From positions 174,430-238,429 of the forward strand of contig NZ_AOIO01000021.1 in assembly GCF_000337555.1 (NCBI RefSeq): a DNA stretch of 64,000 bases. The letters are read 5' to 3'. The DNA comes from Natrialba asiatica DSM 12278 (GTDB lineage Archaea > Halobacteriota > Halobacteria > Halobacteriales > Natrialbaceae). A program made the translations under genes and the position numbers. Position 1 is the stretch's first letter, and each line of letters opens with the position of its first letter. The notes beneath the pieces were generated by a model that worked only from the letters and a program-made list of their open reading frames with translations, was not told the origin of the DNA and made no database searches. Positions 7,160 through 47,584 of this stretch are shown piece by piece.

Positions 7160-7278
7160 ACGCTGTCGACGACGAACGATCAGAAGTGAGTACGGTTGTC
7201 GGCAGGCGTTCGGTGGGCGTCTGTTGACACGTGAGATCGCCGGAAGTCGTCTCGGTCCCGTGAGTGGGGAGATAACAA

Positions 7279-7285
7279 TATTTAA
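7279..7285 (+). promoter_or_regulatory. TATA element of nikR
   Basis: The TATTTAA element is centred about 29 bases before the nikR ATG at 7311, so the transcript is expected to be leaderless. A second AT-rich tract (TATATTATTATATG) runs into the start codon and could hold an autoregulatory operator. Confidence 0.55.
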
Positions 7286-7310
7286 CATTTTGTGGCGACT
7301 ATATTATTAT

Positions 7311-7739
7311 ATGAGCGTCGTTAGCGTCTCGATGCCCGAAGCGTTACTCGAACGGATCGACCAATTTTCCGAGGATCACGGCTACTCCGGCCGGAGCGAA
7401 GTACTCCGAGAGGCGAGTCGTAATCTCCTCGGCGAGTTCGAGGACAAGAAACTGGAAGGTCGCGACCTGATGGGTGTCGTGACGGTGGTGTTCGACTACG
7501 AGACGACGAGCGTCGAAGAGAAGATGATGCATCTCCGCCACGAACACGAGGATCTCGTCGCTTCGAACTTTCATAGCCACGTCGGTGGGCACCACTGCAT
7601 GGAACTGTTCGTGCTCGAGGGATCGCTCGATGAGATTTCGACGTTCGTCGGAAAGATTCGAGCGACGAAAGACACGCTCACGATCGATTATTCGGTGCTT
7701 CCCGTCGACGACTTCGGGCCGCTGGCCGAGATGAGCTAA
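7311..7739 (+). CDS. nikR: NikR nickel-responsive ribbon-helix-helix repressor
   Basis: A 142-residue regulator with an N-terminal ribbon-helix-helix DNA-binding domain ([13 protein letters not shown]) and a C-terminal ACT-like nickel domain. The four square-planar Ni ligands of E. coli NikR (His76, His87, His89, Cys95) are all present as H77, H88, H90 and C96, with identical spacing. It should therefore be a functional nickel sensor that binds DNA as a tetramer when nickel is plentiful. It lies upstream of, and on the same strand as, the nickel/peptide-type ABC importer at 8575-14295. This supports nickel as that importer's substrate. A TATA element 29 bases before the ATG fits a leaderless mRNA. 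Confidence 0.93.
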
Positions 7740-8574
7740 GGACGAAACCGCCGTACCGTCTCGGTCACCGTTCAGTGGCCGTCTCAGCGGGGTCCAGTCT
7801 CGTTCTCGAAACCGACTGCCTGAGCCGTCACCACCGCCGACCGGGGCGTTGAACCCCCCGTTCCCGAGGCGGGCACGATCGATCATCGAGATGGGATACC
7901 TGAACTCGGGTCAACCGATCGAACGCGAACGAAATCCCCTCGTTTGGCGCTGTTTCGTAGTTGTCGATGTACTTCTCGACGACCGGTATCTGCTTCGCTG
8001 ACGGTTCGCACAGAACACATCGATAATCTTACTCGATTACGGTCACCGTCGTTGATAATAGTTAGTATCATGTCGTATTCTGATACCAATAGTTAATATT
8101 TTAGTAGGGTATATTCATAATTGGGCTATGCAATCGAGCACGATCCGGTTGCCGATCCCAGGACCTGTTTCGAGTAGGTACCTCAGTACCGGAAACACAA
8201 CCACGCTCAATCCTGTTCTCGAACGGGTACGACTGCCATCGACTCCACGGCGACGTGCTCGCGGAAACCGACCGACTGGCCGACGACCGTCACTGAGCAC
8301 TCCGTGACGAAATCCGAAGTTTTACAACCATACTTTCACTATTACAAATCATATTGCATGGCAGCGCGCTCGACGGCGATCGACCGAGAATCGACGACCG
8401 CCATCGCGGACAGCACTCCCGGACGTGGACGAGCGACGACCGGTCGGTTGCGGTGGGGCGGCGACCGTCTCGACGGCCGGTCGCAGTGCGGACCACCTCC
8501 CGCTCGCACTGCTTGCGTTCGCACTGCCCACTCGCGCGATCACGTCCCCGTTCGACCGACGATCCATCACTAGC
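7740..8574 (+). other. 835-bp intergenic control region between nikR and the importer operon
   Basis: No convincing gene is seen here. The left half (7740-8040) is GC-rich and featureless. An AT-rich patch at about 8050-8120 holds a palindrome flanked by direct repeats (annotated separately). A second AT-rich patch at about 8318-8360 (TTTTACAA, then CATATTGCATG) is a candidate core promoter. The right end has open frames up to the permease start, but none shows a recognisable protein. Confidence 0.6.
8057..8095. promoter_or_regulatory. Candidate NikR operator: GTATCA-N10-TGATAC flanked by AATAGTTA direct repeats
   Basis: A perfect 6-bp inverted repeat, GTATCA at 8065-8070 and TGATAC at 8081-8086, is separated by 10 bases. 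It is flanked by two copies of AATAGTTA at 8057-8064 and 8088-8095, starting 31 bases apart (about three helical turns). The E. coli NikR operator is GTATGA-N16-TCATAC, so the half-sites are related but the spacer is shorter. The position between nikR and the importer genes suits an operator for the importer. Binding by this NikR is inferred. Confidence 0.5.
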
Positions 8575-9519
8575 ATGCTGCGATCCCTCCTCGCTCGACT
8601 CGGCTCGCTGTCGGCCGTGATGGCCGGCGTCTCGCTGATCACGTACGGGTTCGTGTTTCTCACGCCGGGTGATCCGGCGTATACGATCCTCAGAGAACAA
8701 CGCCAGAGTTCACCCTCGGCCGCGGAAGTTGCGGCCTTTCGCGCGGAGCACGGACTCGACGATCCCTTCCTCGTCCAGTACGGTTCGTGGCTCACCGATG
8801 CCGTACAGGGCGATTTAGGTACCTCGTATCTGCAGTCCGAACCCGTCACCTCACTGGTGCTCGCACAGCTTCCGAACACGCTCGAACTCGCGCTGGCGGC
8901 GACGGCCGTTTCGGTGCTACTCGCCGTTCCGATGGGCGTGGTAAGCGCCGTCCACCGCGGTACCTGGATCGATCGAGCGAGCCAGATCGCCGCGTTGGTC
9001 GGTATCTCGATGCCGAACTTCTGGCTCGGGTACCTGCTCATTCTCGTTTGCTCGCTGTGGCTCGGCCTGACGCCGGTCAGCGGCGCTGGAACGCTCGGAC
9101 AGCTCGTCCTCCCGGCGCTCACGCTCGGCACCGGGATGGCGGCGATCGTCACGCGTCTCGTCCGCGCATCGATGCTCGAGGTACTCGACGCCGACTACGT
9201 CGATACCGCGCGGTCGAAAGGCGTCCGCGAACGGCTCGTGGTGTACAAACACGCGCTCCGGAACGCTCTCGTGCCGGTCGTGACGATCGTGGGCCTCCAG
9301 TTCGGGACCGTCATCAACGGTGCCGTGGTCGTCGAAGCCGTCTTTCAACGACCGGGTCTCGGAACGCTGCTCGTCGATGCCGTCTTCGCCAGAGATTATC
9401 CGATCGTGCAGGGGGTCGTCCTGCTCACGACGTTCGCGTTCGTCGTGACCAATCAGCTCGTCGATCTCGCGTACGTCGCCCTCGATCCACGCATCGAGCA
9501 CAGAGGTGAGCGACCGTGA
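8575..9519 (+). CDS. nikB: NikB/DppB-type ABC transporter permease
   Basis: A 314-residue permease of the peptide/nickel (BPD_transp_1) family, matching E. coli NikB in length. It has an N-terminal membrane helix (about 8-30), a large external loop, and five more helices. The EAA-type coupling loop that contacts the ATPase is seen as DYVDTARSKGVRERLVVYKH (about 203-222). The ATG at 8575 begins MLRSLLARLG, right before the first helix, which is typical of the family; an upstream in-frame extension has no matching feature. Its TGA overlaps the GTG of the next permease (GTGA), indicating translational coupling. Nickel rather than peptide as substrate is inferred from nikR next door. Confidence 0.88.
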   Translation: MLRSLLARLGSLSAVMAGVSLITYGFVFLTPGDPAYTILREQRQSSPSAAEVAAFRAEHGLDDPFLVQYGSWLTDAVQGDLGTSYLQSEPVTSLVLAQLPNTLELALAATAVSVLLAVPMGVVSAVHRGTWIDRASQIAALVGISMPNFWLGYLLILVCSLWLGLTPVSGAGTLGQLVLPALTLGTGMAAIVTRLVRASMLEVLDADYVDTARSKGVRERLVVYKHALRNALVPVVTIVGLQFGTVINGAVVVEAVFQRPGLGTLLVDAVFARDYPIVQGVVLLTTFAFVVTNQLVDLAYVALDPRIEHRGERP

Positions 9520-10424
9520 GTAAATCGACTCCTGAACTCGTCCCGTCGAACGTTGGCCTCGGTGGGCTGTGCCGACGGTACCGGCGGTTCGCCCTGCAAA
9601 CGAATACCGCAATCCGCCTTGGAGGCGGGGTTATCTGGCTGCTCGTCCTCGTTGCCCTCGTCGGTCCAGTGGTGTCGCCGTACGATCCGACGACGCAGGT
9701 GCTCGAGATGCGACTGCGGGGCCCGTCGCTCGCCCATCCGCTCGGTACCGACGCACTCGGTCGCGACGTCGCGACCCGACTCGCATACGGGGCCCGTGTT
9801 TCGCTGGCACTCGCGCTCGCGGCGACGCTCGTCAGACTCGTCCTCGGGACGGCGGTCGGCCTGCTCGCCGCCACGGGTGGCCGACTCGTCGACGTACTGT
9901 TAATGAGACTCGTCGACGTCCAACTCGCGTTCCCCGGTCTCGTGCTCGCGCTCGTGATCGCCGGCGTCCTCGGACCGAGCCTGCGAAACGTCGTCATTGC
10001 GCTGTCGATCGTCGGCTGGGCGTCGTACGCACGGGTCGTGAGGGGAACGGTCCTCTCCATCAAAGCGCGGCCGTTCGTTCAGTCCGCGACGCTCTACGGG
10101 ACGCCGTGGCACCGACTGGTCAAACGCCATCTCCTTCCCCACGTCGTCAACCCCGTGATCGTCCTCGCAACACTCAACCTCGGAACGGTCGTCCTCGCGG
10201 CTGCCGGGCTCTCCTACCTCGGACTGGGTGCACAGCCACCGACGGCCGAGTGGGGGTCGATGATCGCCGACGGGCGAAACTACATGCGATCGGCCCCGTG
10301 GCTCGTCACCGCTCCCGGCGTCGCAATCATGGCGACCGTCATCGGCTTCAATCTCCTCGGCGACGGATTGCGAGACCGGTTGGACCCCGATCACCTGAAC
10401 GACCGACAACGGAGGCGGACCTGA
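9516..10424 (+). CDS. nikC: NikC/DppC-type ABC transporter permease
   Basis: A 302-residue second permease of the peptide/nickel family. It has the OppC-type N-terminal helix (about 35-57), followed by the conserved HPLGTDALGRDVATRLAYGAR segment (about 75-95) and five further helices. The EAA coupling loop lies near residues 185-205 (FVQSATLYGTPWHRLVKRH), and LSYLGLGAQPPTAEWG near 232-247 is another family signature. It starts at a GTG overlapping the stop of nikB and ends 2 bases before the ATPase gene. It would form the membrane channel as a heterodimer with NikB. Confidence 0.88.
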   Translation: MSKSTPELVPSNVGLGGLCRRYRRFALQTNTAIRLGGGVIWLLVLVALVGPVVSPYDPTTQVLEMRLRGPSLAHPLGTDALGRDVATRLAYGARVSLALALAATLVRLVLGTAVGLLAATGGRLVDVLLMRLVDVQLAFPGLVLALVIAGVLGPSLRNVVIALSIVGWASYARVVRGTVLSIKARPFVQSATLYGTPWHRLVKRHLLPHVVNPVIVLATLNLGTVVLAAAGLSYLGLGAQPPTAEWGSMIADGRNYMRSAPWLVTAPGVAIMATVIGFNLLGDGLRDRLDPDHLNDRQRRRT

Positions 10425-10426
10425 CG

Positions 10427-12754
10427 ATGGGTGGTCCGCTCGAAATCGACGATCTCCACGTTCGCTTTCGCACCCAGTCCGACACGGTGCACGCCGTCAA
10501 CGGCGCGTCGTTCGAGATCGCCCCCGGCGAAATCGTCGGTCTGGTCGGCGAAAGCGGCTGCGGCAAGTCGGTCACCGCCCGATCGATCGTCCGCCTCGAA
10601 TCCCCGGGCGAGATCGTCGACGGACGCATTCGCTACGACGGCCGGGACCTGACGACGGCCGACGACCGGACGCTCCGACGGCTCCGCGGCCAAGAACTCG
10701 CGATGGTCTTCCAGGACCCGTCGACGACGCTGAATCCGGTTTACCCGATCGGCGAGCAGATCGCCGAGGCCCTTCGAGTTCACCGCGAGCCGGACGAGCA
10801 GCCGTTTTTCAAAGAACTCGCACGCGGGGCGAGTGCGCGGCTCCGATCGACGAGCGTGCGCTCGACCGTCCTCGAACTCATGGAGTCCGTCGGGATTCCA
10901 CAGCCCGATCGGCGAGTCGACGACTATCCCCACCAGTTCAGCGGCGGGATGCGTCAACGGGCGATGCTCGCGATCGCGCTCGCTCGGCGGCCGTCCGTCC
11001 TGATCGCCGACGAGCCGACGACGGCCCTGGATACGACGACGCAGGCGGCGATCCTCGACCGTTTGGCCGAACTCAACGACGAACGGGGGATGGGAATGCT
11101 GGTGATCAGCCACGACTTCGATGTCGTCTCGGCGCTGTGTGACCGGATCGTCGTTATGTACGACGGGGTCGTCGTCGAACGGGGGCCGGCCGCCGAACTC
11201 CGATCGGATCCTGCACACCCCTACACGAAGGCGTTGCTCGGGTGTCTACCGCGTCGCACCGAGCCCCGGTCGCGGCTCCCGACGGTCGCGGGGACGCCGC
11301 CGGACGGAGCCGCGTCATCGGGGTGTGCGTTCGCCGATCGGTGCCCGTTCGCGACCCCCGATTGTCGGACATCGGCGCCGCCGACGGTTGCGGTCGGGTC
11401 GGACCGAACGGTTCGGTGTGACGTGCCGGCTGCCCGCGACGCACCGGTCGAGGCGGTGCGGACCCCCCGTCCGGACACCCGGAGCGACACGCAACGCGAC
11501 GCGCCGTCGATGGCCGTCGACGGCGGCACGGATACAGCCGCGGCTGCGGCGGCTGCTCCGGGCAGCGATCCCGAGCGAGATCCAGACAGCAACCCGGGGC
11601 CGGGACCAGAACACGCGGCCGAGCCGATCGTCGAACTCGAAGGCGTCACGAAATCATTCCGGCGGTCGGACGCGCTCCTCGATCGACTCCTCGGAACCGA
11701 CGACCGAGTGCCGGCCGTTACCGGCGTGTCCGTCGACCTTCGACCGGGAGAAACCGTCGGCCTCGTCGGCGAGAGCGGCTGTGGAAAGTCGACGCTCGCC
11801 CGCCTGGTCGCCGGCCTCGAAACGCCGGACGACGGAACGGTCAGCCTCCGCGGCCAGCAGGTCGGCGGCGTCGACGCGCGGACGAGTTCACAACTGGCCG
11901 AGATCGACGTCGTGTTTCAGCACCCGGGTGCGAGTCTCAATCCGAAACGGACGGTAGCGCAGTCGATCGCCGAACCGCTCTTCGAAGCGGGGTGGGCGGA
12001 GCCGCGGCGGGAAGATCGCGTCGCGACGGTGCTCTCGCTGGTCGGGCTCTCGCCCGCTGCCGCCGAGCGGTACCCGCGACAGCTCTCGGGCGGCCAGCGT
12101 CAACGCGTCGCGATCGCTCGCGCGGTCGCGCTGGAGCCGTCCGTGCTCGTCTTGGACGAGCCGACGGCCGCACTCGACGTGTCGACGCAGGCGACGATCC
12201 TGAATTTGCTCGCCGACCTGCAGGACGAACTCGACCTCGCGTATCTGTTCGTCTCGCACGATCTCGACGTCGTTCGCCACATCGCGGATCGGGTCGCGGT
12301 GATGTACTGCGGTGAACTCGTCGAGGTGGGGCCGGGTCGCTCGACGCTCTCGAATCCGACGCATCCGTACACGCAAACGATGCTGGACGCGATTCCGGAC
12401 GGTCGTTCGGGAGCCGACGGTGGGTCGCGGTCGGCCACGGGGTCGGGCAGCGATGCGCTCGCGGGTGCCCCTCCGAGTCCCGCCGCGCCGCCCGCGGGTT
12501 GTGCTTTCCACCCCCGCTGTCCGGCCGCCACCGAGGAGTGTTCGCGAACTGAGCCGACGTTCGAGGCCGTCGGCGACGCGCGTTCGCGGTGTCTGTACGC
12601 TCCGGAGTGGAGGGACGATGCGGACCGCCGGGAGACCGGTACGGACGATTCGCGAGCGAGCATGGACCGCCCGGGAAACGGCGAGGGAGAACCGTTTCCG
12701 GACGGTAACGCCGAAGAATCGATCGAGACCACCGACGATACCGACACGCAATGA
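10427..12754 (+). CDS. Fused NikD-NikE / OppD-OppF ABC ATPase
   Basis: A 775-residue protein made of two complete peptide/nickel ABC ATPases in one chain. The first half has Walker A GESGCGKS (41-48), signature FSGGMRQRA, Walker B VLIADEPTTALD and a C-terminal oligopeptide-transporter extension with the cysteine motif CAFADRCPFATPDC. A low-complexity linker (about 345-402, Ala/Asp/Pro-rich) leads to the second half. That half has Walker A GESGCGKST (about 447-455), signature LSGGQRQRV, Walker B VLVLDEPTAALD and the matching cysteine motif CAFHPRCPAATEEC. In E. coli these are separate proteins, so this fusion fixes a 1:1 stoichiometry. It overlaps the lipoprotein gene by ATGA. An acidic tail of about 50 residues follows the last motif. 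Confidence 0.92.
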   Translation: MGGPLEIDDLHVRFRTQSDTVHAVNGASFEIAPGEIVGLVGESGCGKSVTARSIVRLESPGEIVDGRIRYDGRDLTTADDRTLRRLRGQELAMVFQDPSTTLNPVYPIGEQIAEALRVHREPDEQPFFKELARGASARLRSTSVRSTVLELMESVGIPQPDRRVDDYPHQFSGGMRQRAMLAIALARRPSVLIADEPTTALDTTTQAAILDRLAELNDERGMGMLVISHDFDVVSALCDRIVVMYDGVVVERGPAAELRSDPAHPYTKALLGCLPRRTEPRSRLPTVAGTPPDGAASSGCAFADRCPFATPDCRTSAPPTVAVGSDRTVRCDVPAARDAPVEAVRTPRPDTRSDTQRDAPSMAVDGGTDTAAAAAAAPGSDPERDPDSNPGPGPEHAAEPIVELEGVTKSFRRSDALLDRLLGTDDRVPAVTGVSVDLRPGETVGLVGESGCGKSTLARLVAGLETPDDGTVSLRGQQVGGVDARTSSQLAEIDVVFQHPGASLNPKRTVAQSIAEPLFEAGWAEPRREDRVATVLSLVGLSPAAAERYPRQLSGGQRQRVAIARAVALEPSVLVLDEPTAALDVSTQATILNLLADLQDELDLAYLFVSHDLDVVRHIADRVAVMYCGELVEVGPGRSTLSNPTHPYTQTMLDAIPDGRSGADGGSRSATGSGSDALAGAPPSPAAPPAGCAFHPRCPAATEECSRTEPTFEAVGDARSRCLYAPEWRDDADRRETGTDDSRASMDRPGNGEGEPFPDGNAEESIETTDDTDTQ

Positions 12755-14295
12755 CAGACGAGAGACGACGCACGATGGATCGGCGAACCGCACTGCAAAC
12801 GACGCTCGGAACCGCGGCGCTCGCCGTTTCGGGGTGTCTGGCGAACGATGAAAACGGGGCTGACTTCCGGATCGGTAGCCCCTGGAAACCGAACCGGGAT
12901 CCGCTCGACGGTGGCAGCACGATCCGCCGGCTCGGGATCACCGAGGGACTGGTCGGCGTCGATTACGACGCGTCGCCCGCGCCCGAACTGGCGACCGACT
13001 GGGAGCGACGCAGCGACCGGGAGTGGGAGTTCACGCTTCGAGAGGACGTTACGTTTCACGACGGAGAGGCGTTCGACGCGACGGCCGCCGTCGACTCGCT
13101 CACCCGAACCGTCGACGCGCCCGCATTCGAGGACGTTCCGATCGACGCCGTCGAGGCGGTCGACGAGACGACCGTCGCCGTCACAACCGAAACGCCGTTC
13201 GCGCCGTTGCCGGCTCACCTCTCGCGCAACGAGGCGGTGATCCTCAGCCCCCGCGCCGTCGACGACGACGGGTCGGTCACCGAGACGATCGGTACCGGAC
13301 CGTTCGCCGTCGAATCGTTCAACCCCAACACCGAGATCCTGACCGCCCGCAACGACGACTACTACGGACAGGTTCCGGCCCTCGAGTCGGTTCGCTACGA
13401 GGTCGTCGACGACGATCAGACGCGCCGGATGAAACTCGAGAACGGTGAACTCGAGATGGCGCGAATCCTTCCGCACGAAACGGTCGACGCGCTCGAATCG
13501 ACCGGCGGGATCGACGTCTACACGCCACCGGTTCCGCGAATCCGATTCCTCGCGTTCGATACGGATTCGGAACCGTTCGACGACCGACGAGTTCGGCGGG
13601 CCGCGTCCCTCGCGATAGACAGGCAGACGATCACCGAGTCGCTCCTCGACGGACTCGTCGATCCCGCCGTCGGGCCGTTTTCGCCGTCGATCACCGAGTG
13701 GGCGAATCCGGATCTGGAGTCCAATCCCTACGATCCGGACCAGGTCCGGACACTGCTCGACGACGCCGGGTGGACCGGAACCGCCGGCGAGACAAGGACG
13801 CGCGACGGCGTCGAACTGTCCGTCGAGTTTCTCACCTTCGACGCCAGAAGCCTTCCCCTGATCGCCGAGGTGATGCAAGATCACCTCGCTGCGGTCGGCA
13901 TCAGCGTCGACGTGCGAACGCTCGAGTACAGCGCGATGATCGACCGGGTCAATCAGCGGTCGTTCGACGCCTACTTCACGTCGTGGGGAACGCTCTGGTA
14001 CCCCGATCCGGACCGACTCGCGGAGCTGTACCACTCGACGGCCGCGTCGATACCCCACGGCTACGGGAACGACCGCGTCGATACGCTGCTCGAAGACGCA
14101 CGAGAACTCGACGAGCGCGCGGCGCGACTGGAACGCTATCACGAGGTCCAGTCGATCGTCGTCGAAGACGCGCCGATCGCCGTCGTGACCGACTACACGA
14201 ACGTCATCGCGACCGCGGACGATGTCCGCGGCTACGAGCCCCACCCAACGGAATCACACTACGGACTCGAGGCGATTTCGATGGACGGCGAGTGA
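12751..14295 (+). CDS. nikA: NikA/DppA-type substrate-binding lipoprotein
   Basis: A 514-residue extracellular solute-binding protein (SBP_bac_5 family). The N-terminus carries a Tat-like DRRTALQ motif, a hydrophobic stretch, and the lipobox AVSGC with the lipidated cysteine at 29, so the mature protein is anchored outside the membrane. Family landmarks follow: ATDWERRSDREWEFTLREDV, a TFHDGEAFDA element, and RRAASLAIDRQTI in the second lobe. It is the last gene of the nikB-nikC-ATPase-lipoprotein operon and overlaps the ATPase stop. The family includes NikA as well as dipeptide and heme binders. The nickel assignment rests on nikR and the gene order. Confidence 0.87.
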   Translation: MTDERRRTMDRRTALQTTLGTAALAVSGCLANDENGADFRIGSPWKPNRDPLDGGSTIRRLGITEGLVGVDYDASPAPELATDWERRSDREWEFTLREDVTFHDGEAFDATAAVDSLTRTVDAPAFEDVPIDAVEAVDETTVAVTTETPFAPLPAHLSRNEAVILSPRAVDDDGSVTETIGTGPFAVESFNPNTEILTARNDDYYGQVPALESVRYEVVDDDQTRRMKLENGELEMARILPHETVDALESTGGIDVYTPPVPRIRFLAFDTDSEPFDDRRVRRAASLAIDRQTITESLLDGLVDPAVGPFSPSITEWANPDLESNPYDPDQVRTLLDDAGWTGTAGETRTRDGVELSVEFLTFDARSLPLIAEVMQDHLAAVGISVDVRTLEYSAMIDRVNQRSFDAYFTSWGTLWYPDPDRLAELYHSTAASIPHGYGNDRVDTLLEDARELDERAARLERYHEVQSIVVEDAPIAVVTDYTNVIATADDVRGYEPHPTESHYGLEAISMDGE

Positions 14296-15793: not shown

Positions 15794-16508
15794 TATCTGA
15801 CACCCCGGATTCGCTCGGTAGACGGCCCGCCGCGAGTTCCGCGCGAGAGCGACAGCGCGAGACTGGCGTCTGCGCTCCGTCGAGTCTCGGCTCCGTCGGC
15901 CCCGGCGTCGGGACTGCCGCGTCTGCCGCCGGGTCTCACCGCGATACCAGTCCTCCGAGACGCAGCGGCGTCGTCCGTTCGCGCGTTCTGGCGGTCGTCT
16001 CCCGACCGATTCCGTCCGCCGTTGTCGCCCGTCGCCGTTCGAGGCATATGTTATTAATATTGGGGAACAGGCTATTTATAATTTCGTGTCCGGCGGCTGG
16101 ATGCCGTCTCACCGGTCGGTGCCACCGGGTGCTGCTACGCGCGCTCTCGGAACCGTCGCCGCATCGTCCAGCGGGCCGATGGATTCGCTCGTTTCGACCT
16201 CGCCGCTCGGCCGTCGGTCCGGAACTAGTATTCTATCTAATATTATAGTACATCTTAACTTTGAATATCGGTTTCCGAAGTTTATAAATGAATATAAGAA
16301 ACATTGAGGAAGATACTAACATCAGTTGTAGTAAATACTGTCCCATATTGGCCGAATAGCGACGCTGCAAACCAGAGTACCGATTCACCTGCACGATTCG
16401 ACCGGTTCCTTTCGTCCGGTATCGTCGATAACTATCATCGAAAACGATGTATATGGCCGGCTGAGACCCTGCAAGGATTTTTTACCGTTCAACTCACACC
16501 CCTATGAT
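15794..16508. other. 715-bp intergenic region with an AT-rich block
   Basis: The region 15794-16040 is GC-rich with no convincing protein; an open frame there is arginine-rich and low in complexity. AT-rich patches at about 16043-16085 and 16225-16345 stand out against the surrounding DNA. They include TATTAATATT on one side and TTTATAAATGAATATAAG on the other. They may contain the divergent promoter for the methyltransferase and an upstream control site for PEP carboxylase, or be a remnant of a mobile element. I see no transposase remnant or clear terminal inverted repeats. Confidence 0.5.
16477..16484 (+). promoter_or_regulatory. TATA element of PEP carboxylase
   Basis: ATTTTTTA is centred about 28 bases before the ATG at 16509, the haloarchaeal spacing for a leaderless transcript. 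This supports choosing 16509 as the translation start. Confidence 0.6.
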
Positions 16509-46267: not shown

Positions 46268-46561
46268 ATGGTTGCAGACCAAAAGAGGGTGCCGGACACA
46301 AGTGCAACTCTGCAAGGCGTAGCCGCGAGTGGCGAACTCGTGAACGCGGCTGCCGAGACAGTGCCGTCATTCGAATGGTCTCCGTTTGAATTTCTGCTGG
46401 AGTACGAGTGTTTCTTCGAGCGGGCGAACACGAGTTCACTAGCCATCGGATCGCTTCAAGGCGTTCTCCAGTGCTGTTACAAGCCGAAGTTGTATCGGAA
46501 AATTCGTGAAAGCGACCTGATGCGTGTTGTCTACAGCAGCAAGCGTTTGTGGGCTATGTAG
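46268..46561 (+). CDS. Truncated hypothetical ORF beside the att-like scar
   Basis: A 97-residue frame starting MVADQKRVPDTSATLQGVAA. It has an internally coherent middle (FEWSPFEFLLEYECFFERA) and a Tyr/Lys-rich stretch (CYKPKLYRKI), then ends abruptly in SSKRLWAM. The composition resembles the N-terminus of a larger protein, perhaps a transposase or element-borne gene cut short, but I cannot identify it. Its position right after the tRNA-end repeat supports an origin from a lost mobile element. Confidence 0.45.
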   Translation: MVADQKRVPDTSATLQGVAASGELVNAAAETVPSFEWSPFEFLLEYECFFERANTSSLAIGSLQGVLQCCYKPKLYRKIRESDLMRVVYSSKRLWAM

Positions 46562-46642
46562 ACCCCGTACTGTAGAGGGTTTCTATACGGACATATGCTA
46601 GAGATCAGAAAGTATTTTATGAGAGGGAATAAGTATAAACGC

Positions 46643-47584
46643 GTGACAGATATTGATCTGAACGGGCTTCGAAAAGAGTTCGGTAACGGGGTGGTCGCCG
46701 TCGACGACCTCAGTTTCAGCATCGGATCGGGGGAGATATTCGGGTTTCTCGGACCGAACGGCGCTGGGAAGTCGACGACGATCGATATCCTCCTCGGGTA
46801 CGTCGCCCCGACCGCTGGTCACGCGACCGTTCTGGGTCAGGATGTCTGCGATAATTTCGCACCGACTCGCAACCGAATCGGCATCCTTCCGGAGGGATAC
46901 GGCCTGTACGATCGGCTGACGGCCCGCGAACACGTCGAATGGGTGGTTCGAACGAAAGATGCGGCGGACGATCCCAACACGATCCTCGAGCGGGTAGGGA
47001 TCGCTGACGCGGCGGATCGTCGTGTCGGTGGATTTTCCAAGGGAATGAGTCAACGACTCGCATTTGGAATGGCCCTCGTCGGCGATCCCGACCTGTTACT
47101 TCTCGATGAACCGTCGTCGGGGCTCGATCCGACGGGTATTCAGGAGATGCGAAAGACGATCCGCGAGTTGGCCGACGACGGGACCACGGTGTTCTTCTCG
47201 AGCCACGTGCTTTCCGAGGTCGAAGCGGTCTGTGATCGCGTCGGGATCATGTCCGAGGGGCGACTGGTCGCCCTCGACGAAATCGATGCGCTTCGCGATC
47301 AAATTGGCGGGTCCGCGCGCCTTACGCTGTCGCTCGAGTCACCTCCTCGCTCGCTCGAACTCGAGCGACTTCGTGGCGTCCGGACGGTCGCGATTGACGG
47401 GGACACAGTGTCCGTCGATTGCCGCAGTGGTGCCGAGAAGGTCGATGTGATCAAACACGTCGATGACCGGGCGGCGATCACCGATATCGTTTCCGAGGAA
47501 CCCTCGATGGAGGATCTCTTCAACCGGTACACGGAGGGAACCCACTCTGAGACCGACCGGCAGATACTGGAGGTTCCACAATGA
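46643..47584 (+). CDS. ABC-2 type exporter ATPase
   Basis: A 313-residue ABC ATPase with Walker A FLGPNGAGKSTTIDIL (about 40-55), a Q-loop at GILPEGYGLYDRLTARE, signature FSKGMSQRLAFGMALV, and Walker B LLLLDEPSSGLDPTG. The C-terminal ~90 residues form the extra domain of DrrA/CcmA-type exporters. It drives efflux of a drug, lipid or peptide in partnership with the next permease. A TATA-like AGTATTTTAT at 46611-46620 makes a GTG at 46643 the best leaderless start; ATGs at 46595 and 46619 lie in or before that box. Confidence 0.9.
   Translation: MTDIDLNGLRKEFGNGVVAVDDLSFSIGSGEIFGFLGPNGAGKSTTIDILLGYVAPTAGHATVLGQDVCDNFAPTRNRIGILPEGYGLYDRLTAREHVEWVVRTKDAADDPNTILERVGIADAADRRVGGFSKGMSQRLAFGMALVGDPDLLLLDEPSSGLDPTGIQEMRKTIRELADDGTTVFFSSHVLSEVEAVCDRVGIMSEGRLVALDEIDALRDQIGGSARLTLSLESPPRSLELERLRGVRTVAIDGDTVSVDCRSGAEKVDVIKHVDDRAAITDIVSEEPSMEDLFNRYTEGTHSETDRQILEVPQ

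Follow-up and report, generated by a model that had tools for sequence, protein, structure and literature searches.

A probable NikR-type operator array around the archaeal promoter of a decayed cobW gene, ahead of a nickel-type importer in Natrialba asiatica

The closest described counterparts of the locus considered here are bacterial operators of the nickel regulator NikR. In the passages of the three reports on which we draw, the E. coli operator of nikABCDE is GTATGA-N16-TCATAC, with centres 22 bp apart (PMC7055735); the H. pylori consensus is TRTTA-N15-TAWTA, a spacing of 20 nt that is described as two helix turns (PMC5385501); and the delta-proteobacterial sites are GTGTTAC-N13/14-GTAACAC, reversed in D. 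psychrophila (PMC545781). We found no haloarchaeal NikR operator in the literature searched. Bioinformatic work on NikR sites by Rodionov et al. in 2006, which reportedly included methanogens, lies outside that scope, and an earlier description is therefore possible.

Between nikR and a nickel-type importer, the window (the whole stretch of 64,000 nucleotides of Natrialba asiatica DSM 12278 that was analysed) contains a probable NikR-type operator array that can be compared with each of these systems as far as those passages describe them. Like the E. coli operator, it has inverted half-sites about two helical turns apart at the promoter of a nik importer and would answer to the same regulator family, whereas the haloarchaeal half-sites read TTRTTAW/ATARYAA, are several in number and have a TATA box inside the array. 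The sequence GTATGA-N16-TCATAC itself is not present: the letters differ, and N10 separates GTATCA from TGATAC. The H. pylori half-site is nearly the same AT-rich sequence with 20-nt spacing, whereas haloarchaeal promoters have a second pair, a spacing of 20-22 and an archaeal promoter. The delta-proteobacterial sites are of another sequence and form a single pair, and they share with ours that predicted NikR half-sites vary in sequence and orientation between lineages. A preliminary description of this DNA had likened the arms GTATCA/TGATAC to GTATGA/TCATAC of E. coli and had taken the 10-bp spacer for a distinct geometry. The likeness of the arms holds, but the geometry fails, because the conserved register is one of 7-mers 21 bp apart, close to the 22 of E. 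coli and the 20 of H. pylori and thus ordinary for NikR. The real difference is the TATA-straddling array of multiple half-sites together with the different half-site sequence. The features concerned are these:

7272-7310, plus strand: putative autoregulatory operator of nikR (match to model R1, 27.5 bits; conserved in 83 non-redundant nikR promoters)
7311-7739, plus strand: nikR, ribbon-helix-helix nickel regulator (PF08753, PF01402; H77/H88/H90/C96; PDB relatives)
8057-8095, plus strand: outer limits of two AATAGTTA direct repeats, exact
8062-8068, minus strand: half-site 1, TTAGTAT, at offset -21 from half-site 2; overlaps left arm GTATCA
8065-8086, no strand: palindrome GTATCA-N10-TGATAC, exact, not conserved
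8083-8089, plus strand: half-site 2, ATACCAA, within R1 match 8080-8105 (composite score 22.6); overlaps right arm TGATAC, 8081-8086
8093-8099, plus strand: TATA box TTAATA, a half-site look-alike (half-site 3, TTAATAT), at a fixed position relative to half-site 2 as in nikR promoters
8114-8120, minus strand: half-site 4, TTCATAA, 31 bp from half-site 2; identical in three Natrialba loci
8128-8301 (end approximate), plus strand: decayed cobW/COG0523 gene fragment (37 aa, 46% identity to intact CobW, in the L007 frame)
8313-8357, plus strand: proximal promoter-like element CCGAAGTTTTACAAC...CACTATTACAA...TATTG, recognisable in most of 30 nikB orthologs
8575-9519, plus strand: nikB permease (NCBIfam Opp2B above cut-off; Pfam)
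9516-10424, plus strand: nikC (NCBIfam Opp2C above cut-off; Pfam)
about 10427-12754, plus strand: fused ABC ATPases (Pfam)
12751-14295, plus strand: nikA-type solute-binding protein (Pfam)

The regulator combines an RHH domain (PF01402) with a NikR_C domain (PF08753) that bears His-His-His-Cys nickel ligands, the canonical set H77, H88, H90 and C96 first noted being present. It aligns with the solved NikR structures 2bj1 and 1q5v and reaches 83.2 bits against NF002815 (cut-off 83), with the other NCBIfam NikR models below cut-off. No second NikR match was found in the genome at E<=0.001, and the genome encodes urease and thus has a use for nickel. As for the importer, Opp2B and Opp2C (named nickel ABC transporter permease and nickel transporter permease) are above their NCBIfam cut-offs, and TIGR02789, TIGR02790 and the nikA models are below theirs. 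Among the genomes compared, nikR adjoins this importer in three only, all of one genus: the window's own, Natrialba aegyptia (L007/L036) and a third Natrialba (L008). Orthologous importers unlinked to nikR occur in other genera of the family, where NikB matches at E<=1e-100, paralogues included, occur in 73 of 125; we examined the best 30 loci.

The palindrome was reported accurately. Its perfect 6-bp arms lie at 8065-8070 and 8081-8086, the two 8-bp copies of AATAGTTA at 8057-8064 and 8088-8095, and both elements fall between the nikR stop (7739) and the NikB start (8575, set by profile match). Taken alone, however exact, neither the palindrome nor the direct repeats rise above chance. Dinucleotide shuffles of 8040-8130 contained a perfect 6-bp inverted repeat with a spacer of 3-20 in 38% of cases and an 8-mer direct repeat in 13%; the window holds one palindrome match at <=2 mismatches where 0.57 are expected, and the whole genome holds two exact copies, the second (C17:82017) among ORFs with no evident nickel link. 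The preliminary description had regarded lack of conservation before orthologous importers as decisive against it. None of the 29 other nikB orthologs carries GTATCA-N10-TGATAC within 1.5 kb upstream at <=2 mismatches, and since the window's own locus is the only one of the 30 to do so, the palindrome as written does not survive. We also rejected it as a conserved unit in nikR loci, 111 of which yielded no further match at 0-1 mismatches (both exact matches being the window's own locus, present twice) and 11 at two mismatches, with similar results for other spacers. In an alignment of the three nikR-importer gaps, the palindrome is preserved in neither same-genus syntenic gap; AATAGTTAATATTTTAGTAG (with one change in L007) and TATTCATAAT, directly downstream of it, are preserved, and the TATA box shows at most slight change in the two sister loci.

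A different register emerges from the promoters of nikR itself. Across 83 non-redundant haloarchaeal nikR promoters (a set that left out only L003, the partial-start L088/L090/L108 and then near-duplicates), ATRRYAA stands at -39, a TATA element (YTTAATA) at -30 to -24 and TTRTTAT at -7 to -1, directly 5' of a start codon that looks leaderless. In the window these parts are ATAACAA (7272-7278), TTTAACA (7281-7287) and TTATTAT (7304-7310), with the outer half-sites 32 bp apart and the putative operator ending at a leaderless-looking ATG. Our sequence-only model R1 was built from 77 such promoters, none from the three nikR-importer genomes (the window's L001 and L003, L007, L008, L036, the partial-start L088/L090/L108 and near-duplicates were left out); 62 of them have the left half-site at exactly -39, and 74 have the right one at -7. 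R1 matched the window at 7269-7310 (27.5 bits) and 8080-8105 (12.7 bits, E 0.009) only, and a search of all 4.4 Mb of the genome at E<=10 yielded the same two places and no other (E 1.1e-5 and 0.62). The second-best R1 place of the genome thus sits in the nikR-importer gap and overlaps the right arm of the palindrome. On the sister loci L117/L118, R1 did not report the importer site. Over 125 family genomes it produced 117 matches, spread over 110 genomes. Wherever coordinates were compared, by eye, the leading match of a genome abuts nikR; some of these promoters were in the training set. Seven matches were extra: two before nikR paralogues or fragments, one 42 nt before the ATG of an intact CobW-family gene, one at an unlinked nikB ortholog, and three without evident target.

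A composite of half-site and TATA box peaks in the gap at 8082-8101, with p=0.003 for its score (1000 permutations of the half-site columns only); the corresponding p is 0.015 in L008 and 0.13 in L007. Among unlinked importers 10 of 27 reached p<0.05, versus 1 of 29 control pieces of the window; since most of these pieces are GC-rich, the permutation test deserves more weight. CbiM promoters failed this composite (0/16 at p<0.05). The TATA box shares letters with the half-site, which inflates the similarity. A scan for left plus right half-sites at spacers of 22-26 was discarded, as TATA boxes dominated it (window p=0.098).

The gene that this promoter appears to have served is a cobW relative. 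A cobW fragment occurs in all three Natrialba genomes, its frame starting 8 nt after half-site 4; it spans 66 aa in N. aegyptia (L007 2315-2512) and is more broken in the window. The 66-aa remnant matched no Pfam family at E<=1, and its identity rests on the 37 aligned residues and the Pfam match (PF02492 and PF07683) of its intact relative. Intact cobW promoters, 32 in number, mostly follow the order TTAATAA-21-ATAATAA-TATA-about 30-TTGTTAA-ATG. From this set L196 and L211, which have no anchor, and three near-duplicates were removed; a profile of the remaining 27 placed 8099(-) first and 8083(+) second among 127,868 window positions, a ranking that holds without one same-genus row. With the non-TATA columns permuted, 53 of 2000 trials reached the observed value, a modest significance once AT content is controlled. 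The window half-sites score 9.7 on this profile, versus 20-40 for many unlinked nikB promoters. The window has four AT-rich islands only, and those at 16160-16420 and 46520-46740 gave the next-best profile scores, 9.0 and 5.0.

The half-site centres of the array lie 21, 10 and 21 bp apart. The inverted 7-mers TTAGTAT and ATACCAA, 21 bp centre to centre, are thus two helical turns apart, within the 20-22 bp range of an operator, and their half-site is common to other promoters of the same predicted regulon by R1, the composite and the cobW profile alike. To locate partner sites, the nikR-derived half-site was scanned by offset over promoters anchored on the element that immediately precedes the TATA box, in four classes: unlinked nik importers (18 of 27, those with a composite score of at least 12), the window trio, CbiM (14 of 18, without L056, L088, L089 and L090) and SBP (14 of 21, without L009, L043, L056, L060, L067, L077 and L087). 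The rows omitted from the last two were duplicates, poor starts or odd rows, and their anchors were chosen by us from alignments. In all four classes the best offset was -20 to -22 upstream and +30/+31 downstream. Permuted half-sites reached the upstream result in 20/200 (unlinked nik), 0/200 (trio), 7/200 (CbiM) and 0/200 (SBP) cases, and the downstream result in 0/200, 69/200, 7/200 and 11/200, respectively; the downstream half-site of the Natrialba trio is thus weakly supported, and the -21 site of the SBP class scores higher in direct orientation. The nikR promoters have the downstream site only (53/200 upstream, 0/200 downstream). By these comparisons the predicted layout recurs upstream of cobW, CbiM transporters, NMT1-type ABC transporters and unlinked nik importers, with a reduced form at nikR. 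The N10 palindrome is most likely a partial view of the upstream half-site pair, a by-product of two half-sites. Because the window sites are degenerate, the operator may be weak or decaying.

In other haloarchaea, an NMT1-type solute-binding protein with an ABC transporter, or CbiM, or both, lie downstream of nikR (Pfam). At many of these loci nikR precedes an NMT1/TauA-type solute-binding protein, permease and ATPase, with CbiM further downstream in several (L040 4510-7902, L043, L046, L056, L063, L064, L072 and others). This ABC system beside nikR is a candidate for nickel uptake under the same promoter layout. Models of the CbiM promoters (R2) and SBP promoters (R3) gave no match at the window locus; R2 also matched none of 33 nikB-region loci, and its one match in the genome, C29:79962, shows no obvious connection with nickel. 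NikR paralogues of 50-59% identity often stand, judging by coordinates, beside a second cobW (G041:C26, G048:C1, G049:C1, G083:C1, G084:C1, G102:C1, G103:C30, G107:C10), which suggests a separate NikR-like/CobW pair.

We therefore favor, at a probability of roughly 0.7, the reading that 8062-8120 is a NikR-type operator array around an archaeal promoter that lies ahead of the nik importer and once belonged to a cobW gene, since decayed. NikR binding in this gap had been proposed from the start; the region does most likely hold a NikR-type operator, since the right arm is the half-site of nikR's own promoter at the same TATA spacing and the left arm overlaps a half-site position common to other importer and cobW promoters, and only the palindrome as the bound unit has to be given up. 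What is seen directly is that the sequences resemble each other, that their spacing is fixed and that they recur at nikR, cobW and three types of transporter. The NikR tetramer contains two DNA-binding dimers and, once loaded with nickel, would occupy two half-sites separated by two helical turns; the candidates here are the inverted 7-bp pairs 8062-8068 with 8083-8089 and 8093-8099 with 8114-8120, with the TATA box inside the array. Bound NikR would block TBP/TFB at the TATA box, so that an ample nickel supply would silence transcription downstream. The promoter would first have driven a gene for a cobW-type metallochaperone, of which a fragment is left, and transcription from it may still continue into the nik importer. 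From the comparisons above we infer NikR as the binder, dependence on nickel, repression by TBP occlusion and present-day use.

The alternative that survives best, though we consider it unlikely, is that the array is a relic in decay, left from the promoter of a dead cobW and with its sites drifting, and that the importer is transcribed from the proximal element instead. This would accord with the fragmentary state of cobW, the divergence of the sister loci, a cobW-profile score well below that of many unlinked nikB promoters, and the presence of the proximal element at most nikB orthologs. That element is directly upstream of the nik leader, has a motif different from the nikR-type half-sites and did not match the nikR-derived model; it may be the real or main promoter of the importer. 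Written as CCGAAGTTTTACAAC...TTTCACTACTACAA...TTAGTTTG, it has its own loose dyad and is followed by a nik leader of roughly 100-250 nt. Yet the trio shows little or no change in half-site 4, the TATA box and the AATAGTTAATATTTTAGTAG stretch, and unlinked importers without evident cobW retain such a distal promoter.

Less probable still is a real operator whose main reader is another metal regulator that also controls nikR, be it a NikR paralogue (about 50% identity) or a regulator through which cobW answers to zinc or cobalt. NikR paralogues do occur in many of the 125 family genomes, often beside a second cobW, and cobW proteins can serve zinc elsewhere, but the strongest and most universal site is the promoter of nikR itself, and this genome has a single NikR match at the threshold given above. 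We regard it as more doubtful again that the array is a chance product, with half-site look-alikes inside an archaeal promoter that is AT-rich in an otherwise GC-rich genome. The scarcity of AT-rich islands and the frequency of such palindromes in shuffles would fit this view, whereas the second-best R1 match in 4.4 Mb, permutation tests that preserve AT content and the spacing common to four classes speak against it. Least probable is that NikR binds the perfect GTATCA-N10-TGATAC as such, in a haloarchaeal operator of distinct, shorter geometry, for the exact, E. coli-like arms and their place between nikR and importer are outweighed by the absence of the palindrome before 29 other nikB orthologs, both sister loci included, by the ease with which shuffles yield inverted repeats, and by conserved half-sites in another register, 20-22 bp apart.

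Our preferred reading of an operator array fits into a broader picture that we put forward tentatively and hold at somewhat less than even odds: a haloarchaeal NikR operator with four half-sites arranged around the TATA box at spacings of about 21/10/21 bp, at which one or two tetramers would occlude TBP, and a regulon that would include cobW and the NMT1/TauA-type ABC system beside nikR. If this is true, that ABC system would take up nickel, a function for which it is not described. The idea of an operator with a short spacer is corrected, and a palindrome that looks like chance leads to a testable operator rule for nickel control across an archaeal class, made up of a half-site, its register, its spacing and the predicted targets nikR, cobW, CbiM, the NMT1-type ABC and the nik importer. 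The layout would be one in which a repressor family common to bacteria has been wired onto an archaeal TATA box.
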